DNA from: an uncultured Lachnospiraceae bacterium
GTDB lineage: Bacteria; Bacillota; Clostridia; Lachnospirales; Lachnospiraceae
Reading direction: 5' to 3'
Length of the DNA: 8,865 bases
Assembly (NCBI GenBank): GCA_900313265.1
Contig: OMRN01000434.1
Span: 1-8,865, forward strand
The notes under the pieces were generated by a model. That model did no database searches and was not told the DNA's origin. It saw only the letters and a program-made list of their open reading frames with translations. Of the stretch, positions 1 through 8,865 are shown one piece after another (position 1 is the first letter of the stretch; the number at the start of each line of letters is the position of its first letter). A program made the position numbers and the translations under genes.

Positions 1-3000
1 ATAACAACTTCTGGTTCTGCTGCAGGTGCTTCCGCTACAGGTGCATCCGCAAACTCGCTAACGGTTGTAAATCCGGTCACCGCCGCAAATCCCGTTGCTT
101 CACTTTCGGTTTCAACAACCGGTTCTGTACTCTCTTCTTCCGCTTCTGTTTCCACGACGGAACTCTCAATCACCGGCTCTGCGGTTTCAATGACCTTATC
201 TGTATCTTCCACCGGTTCCCTGACACTCATAAAGTCTGAGAGGGAAATCGCAGGTGTTTCTTCTGTCACTGCTGTTTCCTCAATTACTGTTTCCCCAGCT
301 GCCGTTTCTTCAATGACTGAGGTTTCTTCCATTGCAGGTTCTTCACTCAGTATTTCTTCCGCTACCGGTGCCACAGTTTCTTCCGTCGCCGGTTCTGCCG
401 CAACGGTCTCCGCTTCGGCCTGACCACCGCTCACCGTCTGTGCAAAAGCTTCTTTATCGAAATTCTTCGGCTTTCTGGTCGAATACAGACTGAAACCTTC
501 TACTAAGGAAACCGGCTGTTCTTCTTTCTCGCCGGCATCTTCCGTATACGAAGGAGCCGGTGAAACTTCCACTACCGGAATTTCCGTAACCGGAGTTTCC
601 ACAACCGGAGTTTGCGTCGACTGATTCTGTATAACACTTGCCGTGTCTGTTTCAGGTGCACTCATCTGAAGCGTACTACCCTCCGGTTCACTCGTTTCAG
701 CCGCTTTTGTCTCGGCCACTGCAGATTTCAAAGCATCCGAAAAGGATGGCGTGGGAGCAGGTGCACTCTGCTTCGGTTTTGGAGAAACAATCTTTCTGTC
801 TTCCGCTCCTTCCAGCATTCTGGTAATACTCTGAATCGCTTCTTCCTGACGTTTAGCACGAAGTTTACGAATCGACTTCACAGTTGTCGTTTCGAAGTCG
901 GATGTGTATTTCTGGATAGTCTTCTTCACCGGCTGTGCGGTCTGAGTCTGCTTACCGTCCGGTGTTGTGGAAGTCTTAACTCCGTTTTTAATTACCGCAA
1001 TAACACGGGCATTTGCAAAAAGATCTTTCGGAACTTCGATATCCGAAATGTTCTTCTTTGCCGGAGGAGTATATGCCGGCTTGGTAATTTCCACTTTTGC
1101 AGCACCTGCCTCTGTTCCGGATGCGGAAAAATCTCCCGATGCGGCCGGTGCATTGCCCGTTCCTGCAAAGTCAGGCGTTTCTCCTGCATTCACTGCGGCA
1201 ATGGCTGCTGCCAGAGCCTGCTGCTGTTCTTTGGCAATCGCTTCCTTACGGGCAGCGGATTCTAAGGATGCGGCAATGGCTGCATCCGCTTCCACCGTAC
1301 CTTCATCCTTTTCGTCATATGTCATATCGGCATAGATATCATACATCGGAAGGTCGCTCTTTTGAACTTTAACAACAACTTCCTCTTCTTTCTTCGGCTC
1401 CAGTTCAGGCAGTTCGCGAAGAGTTTTGGCATTCATGGTCTCCCAGTCCGCCGTAATGCGAACCTTCGGACGGGCAAAGTTCTTCTTTCTCGGTCTTTGA
1501 CGTTCGGATTTCTTCGGTTCTTCCGGAACAGGCTCTTCTTCTTTTTTCTTGAAATTGATAGAAGGTGCAATCGGCCGTTTTGCGCGTTCCTCTGCCTCGA
1601 TTCTGGCTTTTTCCTCTTCCGTCATCGGTTTCGGGGTAAATACGCCTTTCGCCTTTTCGAAGGAAGGTCTCGGAACACTGACAACCATCACTTCGGGTTC
1701 CTCTTCCTGTCCCTTCTTCGGTTTAAAGGAGATTTCCGTCTTCAGTACTTTCTCCACTTTTTCCATCGTATAGGCAGCCGAAGTCTGATCTAAGAATTCT
1801 TTCTTTTCTTCTTTCTTCGGTACCAGGGAAATGATGGGTGCCACCGGATTATACGGTGTATCAAACGAAGCTTTCTTTCCCTTGGTTTCGTCTTCGGTAG
1901 GCATTGCAAAAAGATTACCGAAATCATTGGATTTCTGTACCGCACCATCGGTTTCTACCACGGGAGCGGCCGGTTCATCCGGCGTCGAAACCGATTCGGG
2001 ATAAGGACTTTCCCCGTATCCTGCAGTGGGCGCACTCTCTTCGGGATATGATGTTTCATATCCGTATGTTTCGCCGTAATCTCCGCTGTATGTAGTATCA
2101 TATTCCTCATTACGGGAAGCATAATCAGCATAAGGATCTTCATAACCGGGCTCTTCGTATCCGTATCCGCCGTTTTCGGCATACGGCTGTCCTGTATATG
2201 CCGGATCCGTATAAGCGGGAGCTGCATATCCCTCACTGCCATAAGCCGTTTCAGTACCGAAAGGCTGCCCGTAAGCAGGCGTGCCATATGTACTTTCCTC
2301 CGCCTGCGAAGGAACTGTTGTTTCAGGCACGGGATACTCTTCCATGGGCGGTTCGTCGTGGAAATATCTCGGTGTAAATACCGTGCCCGTTCCCGACGGT
2401 GCCGCACTTTCTTCTTTATTCGCAGGATTGAATTTAGCAGATCCAACTACGCTTGTAGTTGTTTCTTCCGCCACATTATTCTCTTCCGTCAATACAGTCT
2501 GCGGTTCGGTATACACAGGTTCTTCCACTGCTGCGGATTCCGCATATGCTGTTTCCATGGTCGCAGGTTCTGCTGCCACAGGTTCGATGTATACACTTTC
2601 AGTGACTTCGGACTGAACTTCCGCAGGCGCACTGTATACACTTTCGCTTACTACAGGTTCTTCTTCTGCAGGTACACTGTATACGGTATCACTGAATTCA
2701 GGTTCCGTTACTACGGGTTCGCTGTATACTTCTTCGGTGACTTCAGGTTCTGCTACCGCAGGTGCAATGTATACTTCTTCAGTAACTTCAGGTTCTGCTG
2801 CCGCAGGTGCACTGTATACTTCTTCACTGATTTCGGGTTCTGCTGCTACAGGTTCGCTGTATACGCTTTCACTGACTTCGGGTTCCGCTGCCGCAGGTTC
2901 GCTGTATACGCCTTCGCTGAATTCAGGCTGAACTTCCGCAGGCTCACTGTATGTTTCTTCGGATACCACCGGCTGTTCAAATACAGGTTCCGAAGCGGGT

Positions 3001-5174
3001 TCAACCATAACTGCAGGTTCGGTATAAAGTGTCTCGGATGCTACTGCTTCGCTTAAGACCGGTTCTGCCATGGCTGCCACAGTTTTTACTTCTTCCGCTG
3101 CCGGTTCGGTATAAACCGCTTCGGCTGCTGTCTCTTTGCCGGCAACAGGTTCCGTAACCGCAGGCTGCTCCGCTGCCGGTTTTGTGCTTAATGTGCTTTC
3201 TTTTTTCACCGGTGCGGATCCGACAACATAGGTATCCTCCGGCATGGTGGATTTGTTATGAACACCGCTCGGTTTTCTTCGAATCGGAGGTGTGGGCGCG
3301 GATGAACGGTCAACACCCGGATCCTGATAATTGGAGCGGACCGGAACGGCGGGAGTCCGATAGGAACCGCGATCCGTATCATCGTTGTCACCGGATAAAA
3401 GTGCATAGTTAACGGCAGGATTGTTTCCACCCTTCGGCTTTCCGATGCTTCGTCTGCTTAACCGGTCACGGATGGACATCATCGGATTGAAGCTCTTTTT
3501 CTTACTCTCTTCTTCTTTTGCCGCAGCAACCGCTTCGCCTAACGGATCCGAAGCTGCCGGTTTGTTATCCGCCGCACCCTCCACATAAATCACCGGTTTG
3601 GAATGCTCACTGTCCTCCACGGTCGGAATAACTCTTTCGTTATATTCCCGGGACATATTAACCGACCAGACTTTTGTCTTGTCCGTTTTTCCGCTCATGA
3701 TGGTCCGGACGGTTTCGAAAGCCGTCATCATTGTATGGTCCATATTGTTATAACGATGCTGGCCGTTTCGTCCGATGCAGTAAAGATTCGGATAATTATC
3801 CAGATATGTCCGGATTTCATCGAATCTGGAATAGGTATCGAAATATGCGGGATAGGCTTTTTTCACCATCTCTTTGTGGAAATCCAGAATCTTCGGAGGA
3901 TCATCGATGATACCCATCTTGATGAGTTCCGTTACGGCAAGGGTCTGCCACTGGATATCACTCTGATTCCAGTAATAATCCCCTTCATTGCAGAAGTATT
4001 CGAGTCCGATCCACGCTGTTTCGTCCGGATTGCTTACCATATACGGCGACCAGTTGTTATAAATCTGGATGCGGCCGAGTTTGACTGTGGTATCCTGAAC
4101 ATAAATCCAGCATTCCGGAACAAGATTATTCAGCGTTTTGATTTTGGTCGTATTCTGGATTTTAAGAGAAGGAACCAGAATTCCCAAAACAACCAGGTCG
4201 CGGTAAGGCAGTCCTTTTGCGGCATCTTCCACATTAAAAGGCACATGCTTCATACCTGCAATTAAGTCTTTAACCGGCATGGAAGAAATAACGATATCCG
4301 CTTCGATGGTCATTTCTTCCCCGTCTTTGATATAATTAACGCCCTTGATAACGTTATTCGCTGTTTCAATGCCCTTTGCCTTACAGCCGAACATAATTCT
4401 GCCGCCCTTTTCCTCAAAGCGCTTGGCTGCGATTTCCCAAAGCTGGCCGGGACCTAATTTCGGGTACAGGAAATCATCCGACAGCGAAGTATTCGCGTCG
4501 CCCATATCCTGTTTCCCTTTGCGGTTGGATGTATCTTTTAAGATGGAGGATATCGTAAGGCCCTTCATGCGCTGGGCACCCCAGTCCGCACTGATCTGGG
4601 ACGGATGACGTCCCCAGAGTTTCTCCGTATATCCTTCAAAGAAAAGCTGATACAGCTGTTTGCCGTAATGATTCACGTAAAATCCTTCCAGATTGTTCTC
4701 TTTTTTCTTAAAAATCGAACTCTCCAGATAGGAAAATCCGGCCTTTGCCGTCTGGCCGAGACCCATATTTTTGATGGTGGTACTGTTAAGTTTTACAGGG
4801 TATTCAAAAAATTTCTCGTTAAAGTAAATGCTCGAAATTCTCTTCCGGACAAGCATTACCTCGTCTTCGAATTCCGGATCCGGTCCGCCGGGGGACGTCT
4901 GCACATACCGCTTTAATTTGCGGTCATCATACGCCGGCTGCCCCTGTTTGGAAAGAATGTCTTCCCACCAGTTCTTTACTTCCTCACTGTTTGATATAAA
5001 ACGGTGACCGCCCAAATCCATGCGGTTTCCGTTATGTTCCACGGTTTTGGCGATTCCGCCGACCTGGTTACTTTCTTCAAGAATAACGACTTCGTAATCC
5101 TGCGATTTCTTTACAAGCTCATATCCGGCTGTAATTCCGGCAGGTCCTGCCCCAATGATGACAACTTTCTTCAT
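1..5174 (-). CDS. Giant protein: N-terminal FAD-dependent oxidoreductase (UGM/HemY-like amine oxidase superfamily) fused to a >1,200-residue low-complexity tail; 3' end outside window
   Basis: The frame is open without a stop from ATG 5174 to the left edge, about 1,724 codons. Residues 1-505 form a complete flavoprotein. A Rossmann FAD motif GAGPAG lies at 8-13 and a ribose-binding acidic residue at about 33. A second dinucleotide motif VGGIAKT spans 38-44 and DLGGHRF 53-59. EKLWGRHPSQIS, a motif shared by UDP-galactopyranose mutases and protoporphyrinogen-oxidase-like proteins, starts near 184. The C-terminal FAD signature GRNGQHRYNNMDHTM lies near 468-483. The substrate is unknown; relatives act on sugar nucleotides, porphyrins or amines. 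From about 505 the protein becomes low-complexity: a basic patch (560-585), Pro/Glu/Ala tracts with 15-residue repeats (729-878), a Tyr-rich segment (961-1062), Lys/Glu-rich, Ala-rich and Glu/Thr/Val-rich parts. No signal peptide or membrane segment is visible, so the visible part is probably cytosolic. An AAAGGAC-like ribosome site sits 11-12 nt before the start. It follows the DUF1836 gene by 54 bp. Family assignment of the head is fairly sure; the tail function is unknown. Confidence 0.85.
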   Translation of the reverse strand, partial: MKKVVIIGAGPAGITAGYELVKKSQDYEVVILEESNQVGGIAKTVEHNGNRMDLGGHRFISNSEEVKNWWEDILSKQGQPAYDDRKLKRYVQTSPGGPDPEFEDEVMLVRKRISSIYFNEKFFEYPVKLNSTTIKNMGLGQTAKAGFSYLESSIFKKKENNLEGFYVNHYGKQLYQLFFEGYTEKLWGRHPSQISADWGAQRMKGLTISSILKDTSNRKGKQDMGDANTSLSDDFLYPKLGPGQLWEIAAKRFEEKGGRIMFGCKAKGIETANNVIKGVNYIKDGEEMTIEADIVISSMPVKDLIAGMKHVPFNVEDAAKGLPYRDLVVLGILVPSLKIQNTTKIKTLNNLVPECWIYVQDTTVKLGRIQIYNNWSPYMVSNPDETAWIGLEYFCNEGDYYWNQSDIQWQTLAVTELIKMGIIDDPPKILDFHKEMVKKAYPAYFDTYSRFDEIRTYLDNYPNLYCIGRNGQHRYNNMDHTMMTAFETVRTIMSGKTDKTKVWSVNMSREYNERVIPTVEDSEHSKPVIYVEGAADNKPAASDPLGEAVAAAKEEESKKKSFNPMMSIRDRLSRRSIGKPKGGNNPAVNYALLSGDNDDTDRGSYRTPAVPVRSNYQDPGVDRSSAPTPPIRRKPSGVHNKSTMPEDTYVVGSAPVKKESTLSTKPAAEQPAVTEPVAGKETAAEAVYTEPAAEEVKTVAAMAEPVLSEAVASETLYTEPAVMVEPASEPVFEQPVVSEETYSEPAEVQPEFSEGVYSEPAAAEPEVSESVYSEPVAAEPEISEEVYSAPAAAEPEVTEEVYIAPAVAEPEVTEEVYSEPVVTEPEFSDTVYSVPAEEEPVVSESVYSAPAEVQSEVTESVYIEPVAAEPATMETAYAESAAVEEPVYTEPQTVLTEENNVAEETTTSVVGSAKFNPANKEESAAPSGTGTVFTPRYFHDEPPMEEYPVPETTVPSQAEESTYGTPAYGQPFGTETAYGSEGYAAPAYTDPAYTGQPYAENGGYGYEEPGYEDPYADYASRNEEYDTTYSGDYGETYGYETSYPEESAPTAGYGESPYPESVSTPDEPAAPVVETDGAVQKSNDFGNLFAMPTEDETKGKKASFDTPYNPVAPIISLVPKKEEKKEFLDQTSAAYTMEKVEKVLKTEISFKPKKGQEEEPEVMVVSVPRPSFEKAKGVFTPKPMTEEEKARIEAEERAKRPIAPSINFKKKEEEPVPEEPKKSERQRPRKKNFARPKVRITADWETMNAKTLRELPELEPKKEEEVVVKVQKSDLPMYDIYADMTYDEKDEGTVEADAAIAASLESAARKEAIAKEQQQALAAAIAAVNAGETPDFAGTGNAPAASGDFSASGTEAGAAKVEITKPAYTPPAKKNISDIEVPKDLFANARVIAVIKNGVKTSTTPDGKQTQTAQPVKKTIQKYTSDFETTTVKSIRKLRAKRQEEAIQSITRMLEGAEDRKIVSPKPKQSAPAPTPSFSDALKSAVAETKAAETSEPEGSTLQMSAPETDTASVIQNQSTQTPVVETPVTEIPVVEVSPAPSYTEDAGEKEEQPVSLVEGFSLYSTRKPKNFDKEAFAQTVSGGQAEAETVAAEPATEETVAPVAEEILSEEPAMEETSVIEETAAGETVIEETAVTEETPAISLSDFMSVREPVEDTDKVIETAEPVIESSVVETEAEEESTEPVVETESEATGFAAVTGFTTVSEFADAPVAEAPAAEPEVV
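1992..2295 (-). other. Tyrosine/glycine/proline-rich, prion-like low-complexity segment of the giant protein
   Basis: In the frame of the giant gene, residues about 961-1062 contain 20 tyrosines in about 100 residues. The tyrosines are spaced 2-10 residues apart and set among Gly, Pro, Glu, Ala, Ser and Thr (for example GYGYEEPGYEDPYADY). There is only one Arg and no Lys, and hydrophobic aliphatic residues are almost absent. This composition differs clearly from the Pro/Glu/Ala/Val repeats before it and the Lys/Glu-rich part after it. Evenly spaced aromatic 'stickers' in a flexible chain are typical of assembly-prone low-complexity domains; whether this one assembles is inference. Confidence 0.75.
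2542..2991 (-). repeat. Ten tandem 45-bp units encoding a 15-residue Tyr/Pro/Glu repeat
   Basis: On the plus strand (g/c)TGTATAC-like unit starts recur exactly every 45 bp at 2587, 2632, 2677, 2722, 2767, 2812, 2857, 2902 and 2947, with a degenerate unit at 2542. The repeat is in frame within the giant gene and encodes units like VYSEPAAAEPEVSES (residues about 729-878). The Tyr, first Pro and the E-P-E core are the best kept positions; Ser/Thr and Ala/Val vary. Substitutions fall mainly at third codon positions and at a few variable residues, suggesting older duplication followed by selection. Looser copies of the VYTEP motif flank the array on both sides (near 2510 and 3020-3115). Confidence 0.9.
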
Positions 5175-5228: not shown

Positions 5229-5876
5229 CTATTCTTTCCCGGATTTGTTTTTCTCCTTTTTGCCTTTGGCCTCCGGCTGTGTCTGTTCCTTCATTTCATC
5301 GACAATTCGCTCAATTAACAGTTTCTTGATAAAAATATCATAGCTTAGCAGACACACATAAGAAAATAACTGAAGATATTCCCGATCTTCCTTCGGTACG
5401 TCCTCAAAAAGCGTCAGGGAGGTTTCGTACTTCGCATAAAGATCTTCTTTTAATCCGTCCATACGCTGTTCCCCGGCCGCAAAAACCTGATCGTAGATTT
5501 CCTGCATGGACGGAGCTGCTTCTTCCGAAAAATACTGTGCTGTCAGCGGCGCTGTCAGAACCTGAATGTCTCCGATGGACATGATGTTCTTGAAATAATA
5601 AATCAGAATCAGAATCATCATATGCTCCTTGGAGTATTTCTTCTTCTCCGGCGGAGGAATCAGATTATTCTTCGCATAATTATTTATCATTGTTTTGGTA
5701 AAAATGGGTTCTTTAGATTCATGATCCCTTCTTGAATACTCGAGTTTATCATTCATGAAGGTGGTCACCTGATCCATATACAGACTGATATTGGGGATTT
5801 CCGCAGACTTCATCTGCATGATATCTCCCATTTGTTCCAAGATAGAATTCAGGATTTCTTCTACATCGACCGACAT
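5229..5876 (-). CDS. DUF1836 family helix-turn-helix protein
   Basis: A 215-residue protein matching the DUF1836 pattern common in Firmicutes: an N-terminal helical part with the signature IPNISLYMDQVTTFM (27-41), then a winged-helix-like segment IFTKTMINNYAKNNLIPPP (58-76) followed by a basic KKKYSKEH (78-85). The middle resembles the MerR-type 'sign up and choose' helix-turn-helix, so DNA binding is likely, but the regulated genes are unknown for the family. The C-terminal half is helical and charged and ends in a lysine-rich stretch (KGKKEKNKSGKE). A strong GGGGAGGA ribosome site (5887-5894) lies 10 nt before ATG 5876, which decides the start. It is the first gene after a near-consensus promoter and lies 54 bp ahead of the giant oxidoreductase gene with no terminator between, so the two are probably co-transcribed and it may regulate that unit. 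Confidence 0.85.
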   Translation of the reverse strand: MSVDVEEILNSILEQMGDIMQMKSAEIPNISLYMDQVTTFMNDKLEYSRRDHESKEPIFTKTMINNYAKNNLIPPPEKKKYSKEHMMILILIYYFKNIMSIGDIQVLTAPLTAQYFSEEAAPSMQEIYDQVFAAGEQRMDGLKEDLYAKYETSLTLFEDVPKEDREYLQLFSYVCLLSYDIFIKKLLIERIVDEMKEQTQPEAKGKKEKNKSGKE

Positions 5877-6122: not shown

Positions 6123-6419
6123 ATGAATAATAAAATCAAAACGGAAGCCGTAGACCAGCTGTTTGACGCATTCTTAAAACTGGAAACCAGAGAGGAATGC
6201 TACAATTTTTTTGAAGATTTGTGTACGGTAAACGAACTTTTGGCACTTTCCCAGCGCTTCGCCGTTGCCAAAATGCTTGAAGAAAAGAAAACTTATCTGG
6301 AAATTGCCGAGAAAACCGGCGCCTCCACCGCCACCATTTCAAGAGTCAATCACTCACTTAACTACGGCAGTGACGGCTATGAACTGATTTTTAAAAGATT
6401 AAAAGAAGAAAACGGCTGA
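6123..6419 (+). CDS. yerC: YerC/YecD-type TrpR-related transcriptional regulator
   Basis: A 98-residue all-helical protein of the TrpR-repressor superfamily, with the usual length of the YerC/YecD group found in Firmicutes. Residues 35-52 (TVNELLALSQRFAVAKML) match the conserved core 'L..R..va..L' helices. Residues 57-79 form the helix-turn-helix, with TYLEIAEKTG as the first helix and ASTATISRVNHSL as the recognition helix, followed by NYGSDGY as seen in this family. TrpR itself binds tryptophan, but the ligand and targets of this group are not established, so tryptophan control is only a possibility. A strong GGGAGGGG ribosome site 3 nt upstream sets the start. It is transcribed alone, divergent from the DUF1836 gene, and converges on the shikimate-pathway operon, ending 6 bp from that operon's last stop codon. 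Confidence 0.9.
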   Translation: MNNKIKTEAVDQLFDAFLKLETREECYNFFEDLCTVNELLALSQRFAVAKMLEEKKTYLEIAEKTGASTATISRVNHSLNYGSDGYELIFKRLKEENG

Positions 6420-6432
6420 TTTAAGTCAGCCG
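6398..6432 (-). terminator. Terminator hairpin at the convergent gene ends (best fit to the minus-strand operon)
   Basis: CGGCTGA (6413-6419) and TCAGCCG (6426-6432) form a perfect 7-bp stem with a 6-nt loop (TTTAAG on the plus strand). Read on the minus strand it is followed by the T-rich run TTTTCTTCTTTT, giving an intrinsic terminator for the aro/LytM operon whose T-tract lies inside the end of the TrpR-like gene. On the plus strand no T-run follows, so termination of the TrpR-like transcript there would be weak. The TGA stop codons of both genes lie inside the stem. Confidence 0.7.
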
Positions 6433-7145
6433 CTGATTTCCATCACATCCATGGGATTGATATATTCATCATCATACATAATCTGATATCCCACATGGGA
6501 TGTTATAAAATTCACTTCAAAGAGGAGCTGACCCTGTAAGATGTCATCTCCTTCTTTTACTTTCGGGGCATCATTATAGCGATACACAGTCTTATATCCG
6601 TTGCCGTGATCGATCACTACTTTCTTTCCGAAATCGACATCATCCTCGATGGAAACGACCGTGCCGCTTCCCGCCGCCATAACCTTGGCTCCGTGATTGG
6701 CCCCGAAAATAACCATCTGCGAAAGATCCTTCTTCCTGGCAAGTTCATACTCATCGGGTTCCTCTTCCGTTTCTTCTTCCGGTTCTTCCGCTTCTGCCGG
6801 CTGTTCCTTGATGGTAACCTTTCCGGTAACCGGCAATCCGTTCGGATAGTGCTTGATGGCTTCCTCTTCTTCTTTGGCAATCTGTTCGGCCACCTGATTG
6901 GAAAGCAGCGTAACCTGCGCTTCCAGATCATTTTTCTCTTTTTCGGACTGTATGGCCAGTTCGTCTTTCTGCGCCTTTAAAAGGTCGATTTCCGCTTCCA
7001 GCGATTTAATCTCGGAGCGAGAAACAATAAAAAGCGCGGCAAAAAGCGCACAAAGTGCGAAAAGCACCACAAATAAAATGCGCTTGTGAGCCTTGGCAAA
7101 CTTTATTCCTTTTTCCGCAGTCTGATCGATTTTATCTTGTTCCAT
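6426..7145 (-). CDS. Membrane-anchored coiled-coil protein with degenerate LytM (M23-like) domain
   Basis: A 239-residue protein with a basic cytoplasmic start (KAHKR, 18-22), one membrane helix (about 23-42) and a charged coiled coil (about 44-96). A Glu-rich linker follows (about 113-134) and then an M23/LytM-fold domain (about 150-236) that would lie outside the cell. The fold is indicated by AAGSGTVVS, a central VVIDHGNGYKTVY, VKEGDDILQGQLL and the terminal INPMDVMEI. The zinc ligands look lost: the HxxxD motif is absent before AAGSG, and the HxH position reads HVG. It is therefore probably not a hydrolase but a binding or activating protein, as with EnvC/NlpD-type LytM factors or the non-catalytic SpoIIQ of Bacillus. 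Its ATG lies within the end of aroQ (14-bp overlap) and has no clear ribosome site, suggesting translational coupling. It is the last gene before the hairpin at 6413-6432. Confidence 0.8.
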   Translation of the reverse strand: MEQDKIDQTAEKGIKFAKAHKRILFVVLFALCALFAALFIVSRSEIKSLEAEIDLLKAQKDELAIQSEKEKNDLEAQVTLLSNQVAEQIAKEEEEAIKHYPNGLPVTGKVTIKEQPAEAEEPEEETEEEPDEYELARKKDLSQMVIFGANHGAKVMAAGSGTVVSIEDDVDFGKKVVIDHGNGYKTVYRYNDAPKVKEGDDILQGQLLFEVNFITSHVGYQIMYDDEYINPMDVMEISG

Positions 7146-7611: not shown

Positions 7612-8865
7612 TTAATCGGTTATGCAAAGCGCGCGGATTTCTTCCACACATCCTTTCACATCCCCTTCTTTTATTTCGTATATCACATCCGCCGCACTTT
7701 CATACAAAGACTTTCTTTTTTCGTAAAGTGCTTCGATTGCTCCCTCTCCCATGGAAAGCGGTCTTCCTTCCGAGGAAAGATTTCGGATGTCTCGTTTTAT
7801 GTAAACCACTTTTCCGTTCTGTTTTAAAGCATCCACATTGACCGGTCTGGTTACCACTCCGCCACCGGTGGCAATCACCATGTGATTTAGCAGCGAGATT
7901 CTTCTTACGGTCTGCATTTCCTTTTCGCGAAAAATCTCTTCCCCGAATTTTTCAATACATGCCCCGGGTGTTATTCCGTGCTCTTTTAAAAATTCCTCGT
8001 CGGTATCGACAAAACCGCGTTTCATCGACTCCGCCAGTGCCTTTCCGAGCGTGCTTTTGCCGCTGCCGGGCATTCCGATTAAAACGATATTTTGAAGATT
8101 TTTATATAAATCCCGCTCTACCCGCTCTCCGTCCATGGATTGCGGATTTTTCCCGAAAAGAACCTCAGCTTTAAGCGCCTGCATGACGAGCATATATAAT
8201 CCGTTCGCTGCGGGTATTCCCCTCTTTGCGGCCTGTGCAACAAGCTTTGTACAAAGCGGATTATAGATTACGTCAAAAACACCCTTCAGATTCATAAACG
8301 ATTCCGGTCCGACCGGCATTTCGTCCGCATGCGGAAACATTCCGACCGGCGTTGTATTTACCAAAATCTCCGTATTATTATAAATGTCGCTTCCGATGGA
8401 ATGGATGGGCAGAACTTCCACATCTTTTCCGGCCATGACCGCTTTTGCTTTTTCGGTATTTCTGGCAAGAACCGTAATCTTTGATGCATGCTTTTCCTTC
8501 AGCACGTAAGAAGCGGTTTTGGCGGTTCCGCCGGATCCTAAAATCACGGCATTTTTCCCGGAAAAATCGGCATTTTCCACGCCAAGCGCCCGGTCCATCA
8601 TTTTTGAGAGGCCGTAGGCATCGGTATTGGAACCGTAAAGCGTTCCGTTTTTATTGACAATCGTATTGACCGCACCGATTTCTTTTGCGGCATCGTCCAG
8701 TACGCAATACGGCATAACATCCTGCTTATAGGGAATGGTCACATTCAGTCCGAGGAAATTCTTTTCCGTAAGGAACGCATCAAGCCCCTCTCTCGGAATC
8801 TCTTTTAAGACATATTCCGGATTTCCGAAAGCAGCATGAATCGGTACGGAAAAACTGTGACCGAG
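7612..8865 (-). CDS. aroE-aroK: Bifunctional shikimate dehydrogenase / shikimate kinase (AroE-AroK fusion), N-terminus just outside window
   Basis: The frame runs in from the right edge and 417 residues are visible. Counting from the edge, residues 1-10 (LGHSFSVPIH) are the shikimate-binding start of AroE, so only about 5-12 residues are probably missing. AroE continues with catalytic Lys47 in VTIPYKQD, Asn67 in GAVNT and Asp82 in SNTDAYG. The NADP motif GSGGTA is at 110-115, with Arg135 for the NADP phosphate. NTTPVGM (170-176), DVIYNPLCT (198-206) and NGLYMLVMQA (221-230) complete the domain. After a short linker, AroK begins at about 259: Walker A GMPGSGKST (264-272), DTD (287-289), FREKE with Arg313, ATGGG (332-336), LID segment EGRPL (366-370) and the KRKSLYESAAD adenine-side motif. 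Both domains keep their catalytic residues. The protein should reduce 3-dehydroshikimate to shikimate with NADPH and then phosphorylate it with ATP. An internal GTG at 8742 (residue 42) is not the start, because conserved AroE sequence lies upstream of it. It heads the operon with aroQ. Confidence 0.95.
   Translation of the reverse strand, partial: LGHSFSVPIHAAFGNPEYVLKEIPREGLDAFLTEKNFLGLNVTIPYKQDVMPYCVLDDAAKEIGAVNTIVNKNGTLYGSNTDAYGLSKMMDRALGVENADFSGKNAVILGSGGTAKTASYVLKEKHASKITVLARNTEKAKAVMAGKDVEVLPIHSIGSDIYNNTEILVNTTPVGMFPHADEMPVGPESFMNLKGVFDVIYNPLCTKLVAQAAKRGIPAANGLYMLVMQALKAEVLFGKNPQSMDGERVERDLYKNLQNIVLIGMPGSGKSTLGKALAESMKRGFVDTDEEFLKEHGITPGACIEKFGEEIFREKEMQTVRRISLLNHMVIATGGGVVTRPVNVDALKQNGKVVYIKRDIRNLSSEGRPLSMGEGAIEALYEKRKSLYESAADVIYEIKEGDVKGCVEEIRALCITD

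Follow-up and report, generated by a model that had tools for sequence, protein, structure and literature searches.

What is a bacterial flavoenzyme doing with a predicted disordered tail more than twice its own length? The question is raised by a stretch of 8,865 bases, hereafter the window, in which a minus-strand open reading frame starts with an ATG at 5174, contains no stop codon in its 1,724 codons down to position 3, and is still open at the window edge. Because the window is the complete contig (G000:C160, in a genome of 477 contigs rated 73% complete), the frame ends at a contig break. At the base composition of the window, the chance of a stop-free run this long is log10 P ∼ -34. The frame divides into two parts:

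3660..5174, minus strand: head, residues 1-505, FAD domain resembling UDP-galactopyranose mutase (UGM) (NF005546; best PDB and Foldseek match 4dsg; AlphaFold2)
3..3659, minus strand: tail, residues 506-1724, running off the contig, with predicted disorder (AlphaFold2 pLDDT, composition)

The earlier note read this frame as a fusion that is not obviously two genes joined by an error, with a tail more than twice as long as the head, and both points were borne out. Other genomes supply 20 complete relatives in which head and tail follow each other in the same frame and end in a stop, with no sign of the frameshift considered near 3430-3660; one of these genomes is that of an isolate, Lachnospiraceae bacterium G41 (FNEU01, a 1,506-amino-acid version). 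Four database proteins among the matches listed (P0001-P0004, 1,739-1,837 amino acids) are near-identical to the window protein; their heads are listed as 100% identical to the window head, a rounded value, P0003 and P0004 differing from it by at least one residue. The true C-terminus, which the note placed to the left of the window, lies beyond the contig, of which the window is the whole; P0001, P0003 and P0004, the three proteins checked, extend 154 residues past the match to the window's last residues.

Head and tail as separate genes are nearly excluded. In a protein search with the tail islands, in which part of the candidates was scored, 11 of the 13 matches listed have a head; the other two, P0241 (879 amino acids) and P0242 (1,211 amino acids), comprise tail and islands only and may be genes of their own, products of a start inside a longer frame or proteins cut at a contig edge. 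That the fusion is an artefact of misassembly, of a frameshift or of reading two genes as a single one is barely credible: although the frame stops at a contig edge and the two tail-only proteins exist, the 20 complete relatives lie in other genomes and one of them is an isolate, three of the four near-identical full proteins were checked to their ends, and dN/dS is below 1 in every tail segment with an estimable value. We conclude that the fusion is real and conserved.

The head had been described as an FAD oxidoreductase. By sequence and predicted fold, a UGM-like flavoprotein fits better than a generic oxidoreductase. The whole frame scores 692 bits and the head alone 684.5 bits with NF005546 (PRK07208.1-2), whose cutoff is 418, and the best PDB sequence match of the head is the UGM 4dsg (E 2e-16), which we take to be the enzyme from T. 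cruzi. The predicted head model again matched 4dsg best in Foldseek (TM-score 0.73-0.74 by query and 0.78-0.79 by target), and ranks 1-32 are all UGM chains with query TM-scores of 0.68-0.74; a protoporphyrinogen oxidase comes next at rank 33 (0.68/0.75), which we count against a UGM-type reading. With the UGM equivalog model TIGR00031, the frame and the head reach 27.3 and 34.0 bits, below the cutoff of 303.75, and we therefore call the head UGM-like, not UGM. Identity as a protoporphyrinogen oxidase was considered and rejected: the TIGR00562 scores of 42.1 and 44.9 bits fall below the cutoff of 97.85 and the best PDB sequence and fold matches are UGMs, even though protoporphyrinogen oxidases follow by fold. 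Some relatives (e.g., P0106) carry this name in a source, which TIGR00562 does not bear out.

Residue pairs derived from sequence alignments (window numbering being the chain number minus 3) place H63, R182, R327, R447 and Y453 of the Aspergillus fumigatus UGM at H57, R202, R368, R469 and Y475 of the window head, and all five are kept. According to Table 3 of PMC3624792, R182, R327 and Y453 contact the diphosphate and R447 and H63 the FAD, so equivalents of these diphosphate and FAD contacts are present in the window head; the same source gives further contacts (Y104, F158, N163, W167, N207, Y317, Y419, and N457) outside the five that we mapped. The AlphaFold2 model of the head has a mean pLDDT of 80.7 and drops below 50 at 202-232 and 470-477, stretches that surround R202 and Y475, and this counts against the reading that we favor below.

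The tailed gene is a core gene of an uncharted rumen and gut bacterial group. We found the head in 30 of the 31 genomes of the genus, including 13 of the 13 with a completeness of 90% or more and a contamination of 5% or less. Twenty of the 30 encode complete tailed proteins with a stop, of 974-2,168 amino acids and with tails of ∼450-1,660 residues. As for the other ten, G002 has runs of N in the tail, in eight, counting the window, the contig ends before the tail does, and G016 is cut in the head; no copy of the locus complete enough to judge therefore lacks the tail. Tail-less paralogues also occur, complete in G015 and G004, reaching the contig edge in G028 and cut in the window's own genome, where this second head (L061; G000:C356, 3798-4865) adjoins an 835-amino-acid protein with a sub-cutoff Sulfatase match.

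We also sampled 250 genomes from the family. A head match at an E value of 1e-60 or lower was found in 45, and 43 of these belong to other genera. No such tail was found in these 43 genomes, whose frames measure 428-591 amino acids with two exceptions, neither of which has a C-terminal tail: the 721-amino-acid frame of G268 reflects N-terminal read-through and the 724-amino-acid frame of G245 contains runs of N. To the note's question whether head homologues in related Lachnospiraceae also carry long tails, the answer is yes within the genus (20 complete proteins) and no for the 43 genomes from elsewhere in the family.

Neighbors of the tailed gene in the window are the following:

5229..5876, minus strand: DUF1836 protein, upstream neighbor of the tailed gene (PF08876, E 4e-32)
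6123..6419, plus strand: TrpR-like regulator (PF01371, E 6e-32)
6426..7145, minus strand: M23 peptidase-domain protein (PF01551, E 5e-15)

At 29 tailed loci, the corresponding neighbor clusters were found 29 times for the TrpR-like regulator, 27 times for the M23 protein and 21 times for the DUF1836 protein, and since these neighbors are kept, we regard the tailed genes as one orthologous locus. Downstream, lepA (read by eye) lies at some distance in 14 of the 21 tailed loci with downstream sequence, and rpsT- and hemW-like genes, likewise read by eye, are often found on that side; this neighborhood, which is not a sugar cluster, counts against a scaffold for a sugar pathway. At L040-L045, HMGL-like and TPP-enzyme cluster genes come after the tailed gene, to which L042-L045 add a DegT-type cluster and L042-L044 glycosyltransferase family 2 clusters; Pfam results for these loci come from L044 only. 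Two of the L040-L045 clusters recur at the tail-less copies L059 and L060, together with a nucleotidyl transferase cluster (from Pfam in L059 only). At the far end of the window (7612-8865, minus strand), shikimate dehydrogenase and shikimate kinase domains share one frame, an AroE-AroK-type fusion that is open at the contig edge.

A database search for long relatives gave 353 matches. Among the 120 listed, 78 have hydrophilic tails, 38 have a membrane domain C-terminal to the head and 4 have one N-terminal to it; the last 4, with the head at the C-terminal end, were placed in neither group, and the 78 include near-copies and may not all belong to the window's genus. The membrane-fused heads listed (part of P0047-P0120; P0047, P0048, P0050, P0051, P0060, P0071, P0077, and P0118 are examples) carry 6-11 hydrophobic segments after the head. 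When nine of them were searched with Pfam, P0060 matched GT87, P0050 matched PMT_2, and the other seven had no glycosyltransferase family match. A separate search for head-sized proteins, admitting 0.55-1.75 times the head length, gave 7,998 matches, of which the 120 listed (515-660 amino acids) are tail-less relatives 52-63% identical to the window head; A1 takes in 23 of these 120.

We built a 95-row tree from 19 tailed, 18 membrane-fused and 24 tail-less proteins (drawn from the 78, 38 and 120 listed, respectively), 33 genome rows and the window, and a more careful 60-row tree from which 35 rows had been dropped by hand, these being near-copies and some long branches (e.g., P0060 and P0090). 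The tailed label requires one change, with an SH-aLRT support of 97 in the 95-row tree and of 100/98, together with 100% of 200 bootstrap trees, in the 60-row tree. The membrane-fusion label requires six and five changes, respectively. The tail was likely gained once; as neither tree is rooted, that it was gained and not lost is read from the tail's spread.

Within the tail, five stretches can be told apart:

3447..3491, minus strand: FNPMMSIRDRLSRRS, residues 562-576, basic and in part a predicted helix (moment-plus-charge score, AlphaFold2)
3390..3413, minus strand: VNYALLSG motif, residues 588-595 (N.ALL[SAD] pattern)
2415..3164, minus strand: acidic Pro-/Tyr-containing region, residues 671-920, with a 15-residue tandem repeat (TRF, charge)
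1380..1949, minus strand: island 1, residues 1076-1265, with KSNDFG, GVFTPKP, RPIAPSINFK and ITADWETMNAKTLRELPE (conservation)
780..1064, minus strand: island 2, residues 1371-1465, with IEVPKDLFANARVIAVIKNG and, inside TIQKYTSDFETTTVKSIRKLRAKRQEEAIQSITRMLEG, a predicted helix that is basic (conservation)

The earlier claim that the tail is disordered holds as a prediction: an AlphaFold2 run over residues 506-1700 (1,195 of the 1,219 tail residues, with a shallow alignment of 11 sequences, the window's and ten relatives') gave a mean pLDDT of 36.1, with 1,066 of the 1,195 residues under 50. The model contains five predicted helices that span 9-36 residues and two short ones of 4-6, and over the same residues no hidden folded domain is predicted. 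Low complexity, also claimed, applies to 58% of the 30-residue windows of the tail compared to 1% of those of the head, but the two conserved islands mean that the tail is not featureless. Its composition is marked by an absence of Cys, 15.6% Glu and 9.8% Pro, and its net charge is -127.

The acidic region has a net charge of -54, and TRF places its repeat at 2564-2952 (period 45, 8.6 copies). The 15-residue repeats vary among relatives: over the repeat region, four relatives share 36-49% identity with the window, and the copy number varies even among near-identical proteins (read by eye). Outside the window's gene, the repeat was not found in the same genome or in four more, their tailed genes included. 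The islands behave differently. Island 1 is 71-76% identical to four relatives, with many invariant alignment columns and a dN/dS of 0.05 and 0.08 in two pairs with unsaturated dS; island 2, with a net charge of +8, is 81-85% identical with a dN/dS of 0.07-0.11, and a search of the window's own, 73%-complete genome found no second copy of it.

A short C-terminal motif is common to most tailed relatives among the matches listed. The eight-position island 2 motif [GA][KRT]VI[KA][STAEV][TKNI][IKV] fits 74 of the 78 tailed and 0 of the 38 membrane-fused proteins listed, and three other patterns fit fewer tailed proteins (40, 36, and 11 of the 78); N.ALL[SAD] is present in 36 tailed and 0 membrane-fused proteins. 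The patterns were composed after the tails had been inspected. PISV is present in 29 of the 78 listed tailed proteins, and at L049-L057 a variable tail ends in PISVMLDAKEAAEMTEPLESP or variants of it, a C-terminal signature specific to that clade. The tails of P0001-P0011, which among the matches listed are the window's nearest relatives, showed no hydrophobic window, and P0015, P0017, P0027, and P0033 have one each among the 78 hydrophilic tails. The 18-residue windows around residues 562-576 top the tail's moment-plus-charge ranking with a moment of only 0.25-0.28; a helix is predicted at tail positions 63-71 (residues 568-576), with a moment of 0.43 over those 9 residues. FNPMMSIRDRLSRRS might contact a membrane or a partner, although as a candidate it is weak. 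In P0001, P0003, and P0004, the last 154 residues contain 29 K/R and 30-31 acidic residues, with basic clusters.

Where dS could be estimated, dN/dS was 0.05-0.11 in the islands, 0.16-0.40 in other tail segments and ∼0.07-0.11 in the head, so the islands are about as constrained as the head; these ratios are rough, as many pairs have a dS that is high or beyond saturation. The whole tail evolves much faster than the head, and we count this against our main reading: tail dN (0.107-0.489) exceeded head dN (0.009-0.198) in all ten pairs compared. In three pairs with dS below 1 throughout, tails had a dN of 0.107-0.147 and a dS of 0.650-0.865, and heads had a dN of 0.009-0.019 and a dS of 0.274-0.522; in two B-type pairs, tail dN was 0.40-0.46 versus 0.037-0.054 for the head. 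Also counted against it is that a C-terminal query of 136 residues, taken from a single clade, matched two of six genus genomes, which means that across clades short motifs alone are common.

The head itself has changed within part of the tailed group. All 120 tail-less and all 38 membrane-fused proteins listed have Arg as the R182 equivalent, as do five of five tail-less genome rows. Among the 78 tailed proteins listed, this residue is Arg in 46 and absent in 32, one of them with Lys, and among 28 tailed genome rows it is Arg in 13 and Lys in one. The window's own clade retains it as R202. In the same 78 listed proteins, the Y453 equivalent is kept in 47 and missing in 31, those of H63 and R447 are kept in all, and that of R327 is kept in 77, the last counting against a loss of catalysis. 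In the in vitro results given in PMC3893270, the A. fumigatus mutants R182A and R182K have 6e-6 and 0.10 of wild-type activity, respectively, and the same account describes R327 as critical and R182 as a much lesser contributor than R327.

With the R202 label set by hand and Lys (L047) counted as lost, the loss needs two changes on the 60-row tree; it may nevertheless be one event, since long branches meet in the 95-row tree and L046 is long in the 60-row tree. Heads without the R182 equivalent are still constrained (those of L051 and L052 differ with a dN of 0.009 and a dS of 0.274), so decay can be set aside, and a different use is probable.

The tailed protein likely serves as a scaffold, whether in addition to acting as an enzyme or in place of it, given that the tail is present in every copy that could be judged and that a key predicted substrate-binding residue has changed in part of the lineage. 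Our main reading, to which we give about an even chance, is that a UGM-like head carries a long disordered tail working as a scaffold, in which the islands dock partners and the repeats are spacers. The islands would probably bind proteins of cell-surface sugar assembly, with the acidic repeats acting as flexible linkers between the docking sites; both the binding and the surface glycan pathway are what we infer from the UGM-like head and the membrane-domain fusions seen elsewhere, which suggest that the partners probably belong to envelope glycan assembly. In the window's clade, where the five mapped UGM-type residues are present, the head would still act on a nucleotide sugar. In other tailed branches, this activity may have been lost or changed and the head kept mainly as an FAD-binding carrier of the scaffold. 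A further reading, possible but put forward tentatively and at less than even chances, is that after a single gain the tail became the selected part and that in up to two branches the head became an FAD-loaded docking domain without mutase catalysis, a flavin-sensing or structural hub that organizes envelope glycan assembly.

The earlier note had guessed at a scaffold, a tether or condensates. The guess fits the evidence, and a scaffold appears to fit best. A tail that tethers an active UGM-like enzyme to the membrane or envelope, holding it by a membrane glycosyltransferase in place of a covalent fusion, is suggested by the membrane domains to which the head is separately fused elsewhere and by the basic stretch with its short predicted helix at 562-576. 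We consider it unlikely, because the tails of the window's nearest listed relatives have no hydrophobic span, the moment near that stretch is low, some ∼1,200 residues with several islands would seem unnecessary for the purpose, and the loss of the R182 equivalent in some tailed forms speaks against a role for the enzyme only. Condensates driven by the tail, in which enzyme and pathway would be brought to high concentration with the islands as stickers and the repeats as spacers, would agree with the charge blocks (-54 in 671-920, +8 in island 2), the basic clusters at the C-terminal ends of P0001, P0003, and P0004 and the variable copy number of the repeat. Composition alone is no demonstration of phase separation, however, and island identities of 71-85% suggest specific binding, so we hold this to be quite unlikely as the explanation, although it is compatible with a scaffold.

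Another possibility is that the tail does little. If most of it were repeat expansion that is simply tolerated, the low identity of the repeat region, the faster evolution of tails than heads in ten of ten pairs and the wide range of tail lengths would all follow; its presence in every copy of the locus complete enough to judge, the constrained islands and a motif common to 74 of the 78 listed tailed proteins make this improbable. We also considered that the C-terminal basic clusters (of the KRTRK, KPKRSYRKRAPK and KKSARKPRAKK types) bind nucleic acid or a negatively charged membrane and so link sugar metabolism to the nucleoid or ribosomes. The 29 K/R residues in the last 154 residues of the three near-identical proteins, similar clusters at L036 and L037 and the ribosome-related neighbor genes (read by eye) point that way, but the same stretch holds equally many acidic residues and the family profile searches reported no nucleic acid domain for the reading frame, and this explanation is highly improbable.

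Compared to known systems, the predicted fold of the head is that of UGMs of known structure (3ute from A. fumigatus and 4dsg), with the five mapped residues kept in the window head; it differs from them in sharing 18-20% identity, in having Asn at the equivalent of H68 and in falling below the UGM equivalog cutoff. UGM chains in the PDB are 367-519 residues long, and we know of no UGM with such a tail. The window head is also a member of the tail-less family NF005546/PRK07208, whose models are named "hypothetical protein" and some of whose members are called NAD(P)/FAD-dependent oxidoreductase in a source. Membrane-fused relatives share the head and have an added part, but among the matches listed this part consists of 6-11 hydrophobic segments and not of a disordered tail; they also differ from the tailed proteins in needing five or six changes on the trees and in keeping R202 in 38 of 38. 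In the open-licence literature, with subscription papers mostly outside the search, no tailed UGM-type flavoenzyme was found. Tail-less heads, membrane-fused heads, tailed heads with the mapped residues and tailed heads without the R182 equivalent form a natural comparison set, and together with the isolate G41 in the genus they make it testable whether a scaffold tail takes over the selected function of an enzyme.

For the layout as a whole, our best reading is by analogy with RNase E, with a UGM-fold head and a putative scaffold tail. RNase E is an unrelated enzyme of unrelated sequence. In the passages of PMC7613265 that describe the Escherichia coli protein, an N-terminal catalytic domain is followed by a predicted-disordered scaffold domain, a polyampholyte with conserved microdomains of 20-70 residues. 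The window protein likewise joins a predicted folded head and a long predicted-disordered tail in one chain, and its tail has conserved segments, as islands within the window's clade and as short motifs alone across clades. For the membrane-targeting amphipathic helix of RNase E, the window protein offers a candidate at 562-576 with a weak moment. The partners and membrane contact of RNase E are known, whereas those of the tailed UGM-like protein are putative. A long disordered scaffold tail on a bacterial enzyme is familiar from RNase E, and none on a UGM-type flavoenzyme was found in the open-licence literature searched; if the more tentative reading given above is true, a sugar-mutase flavoenzyme has been turned into a genus-wide scaffold.
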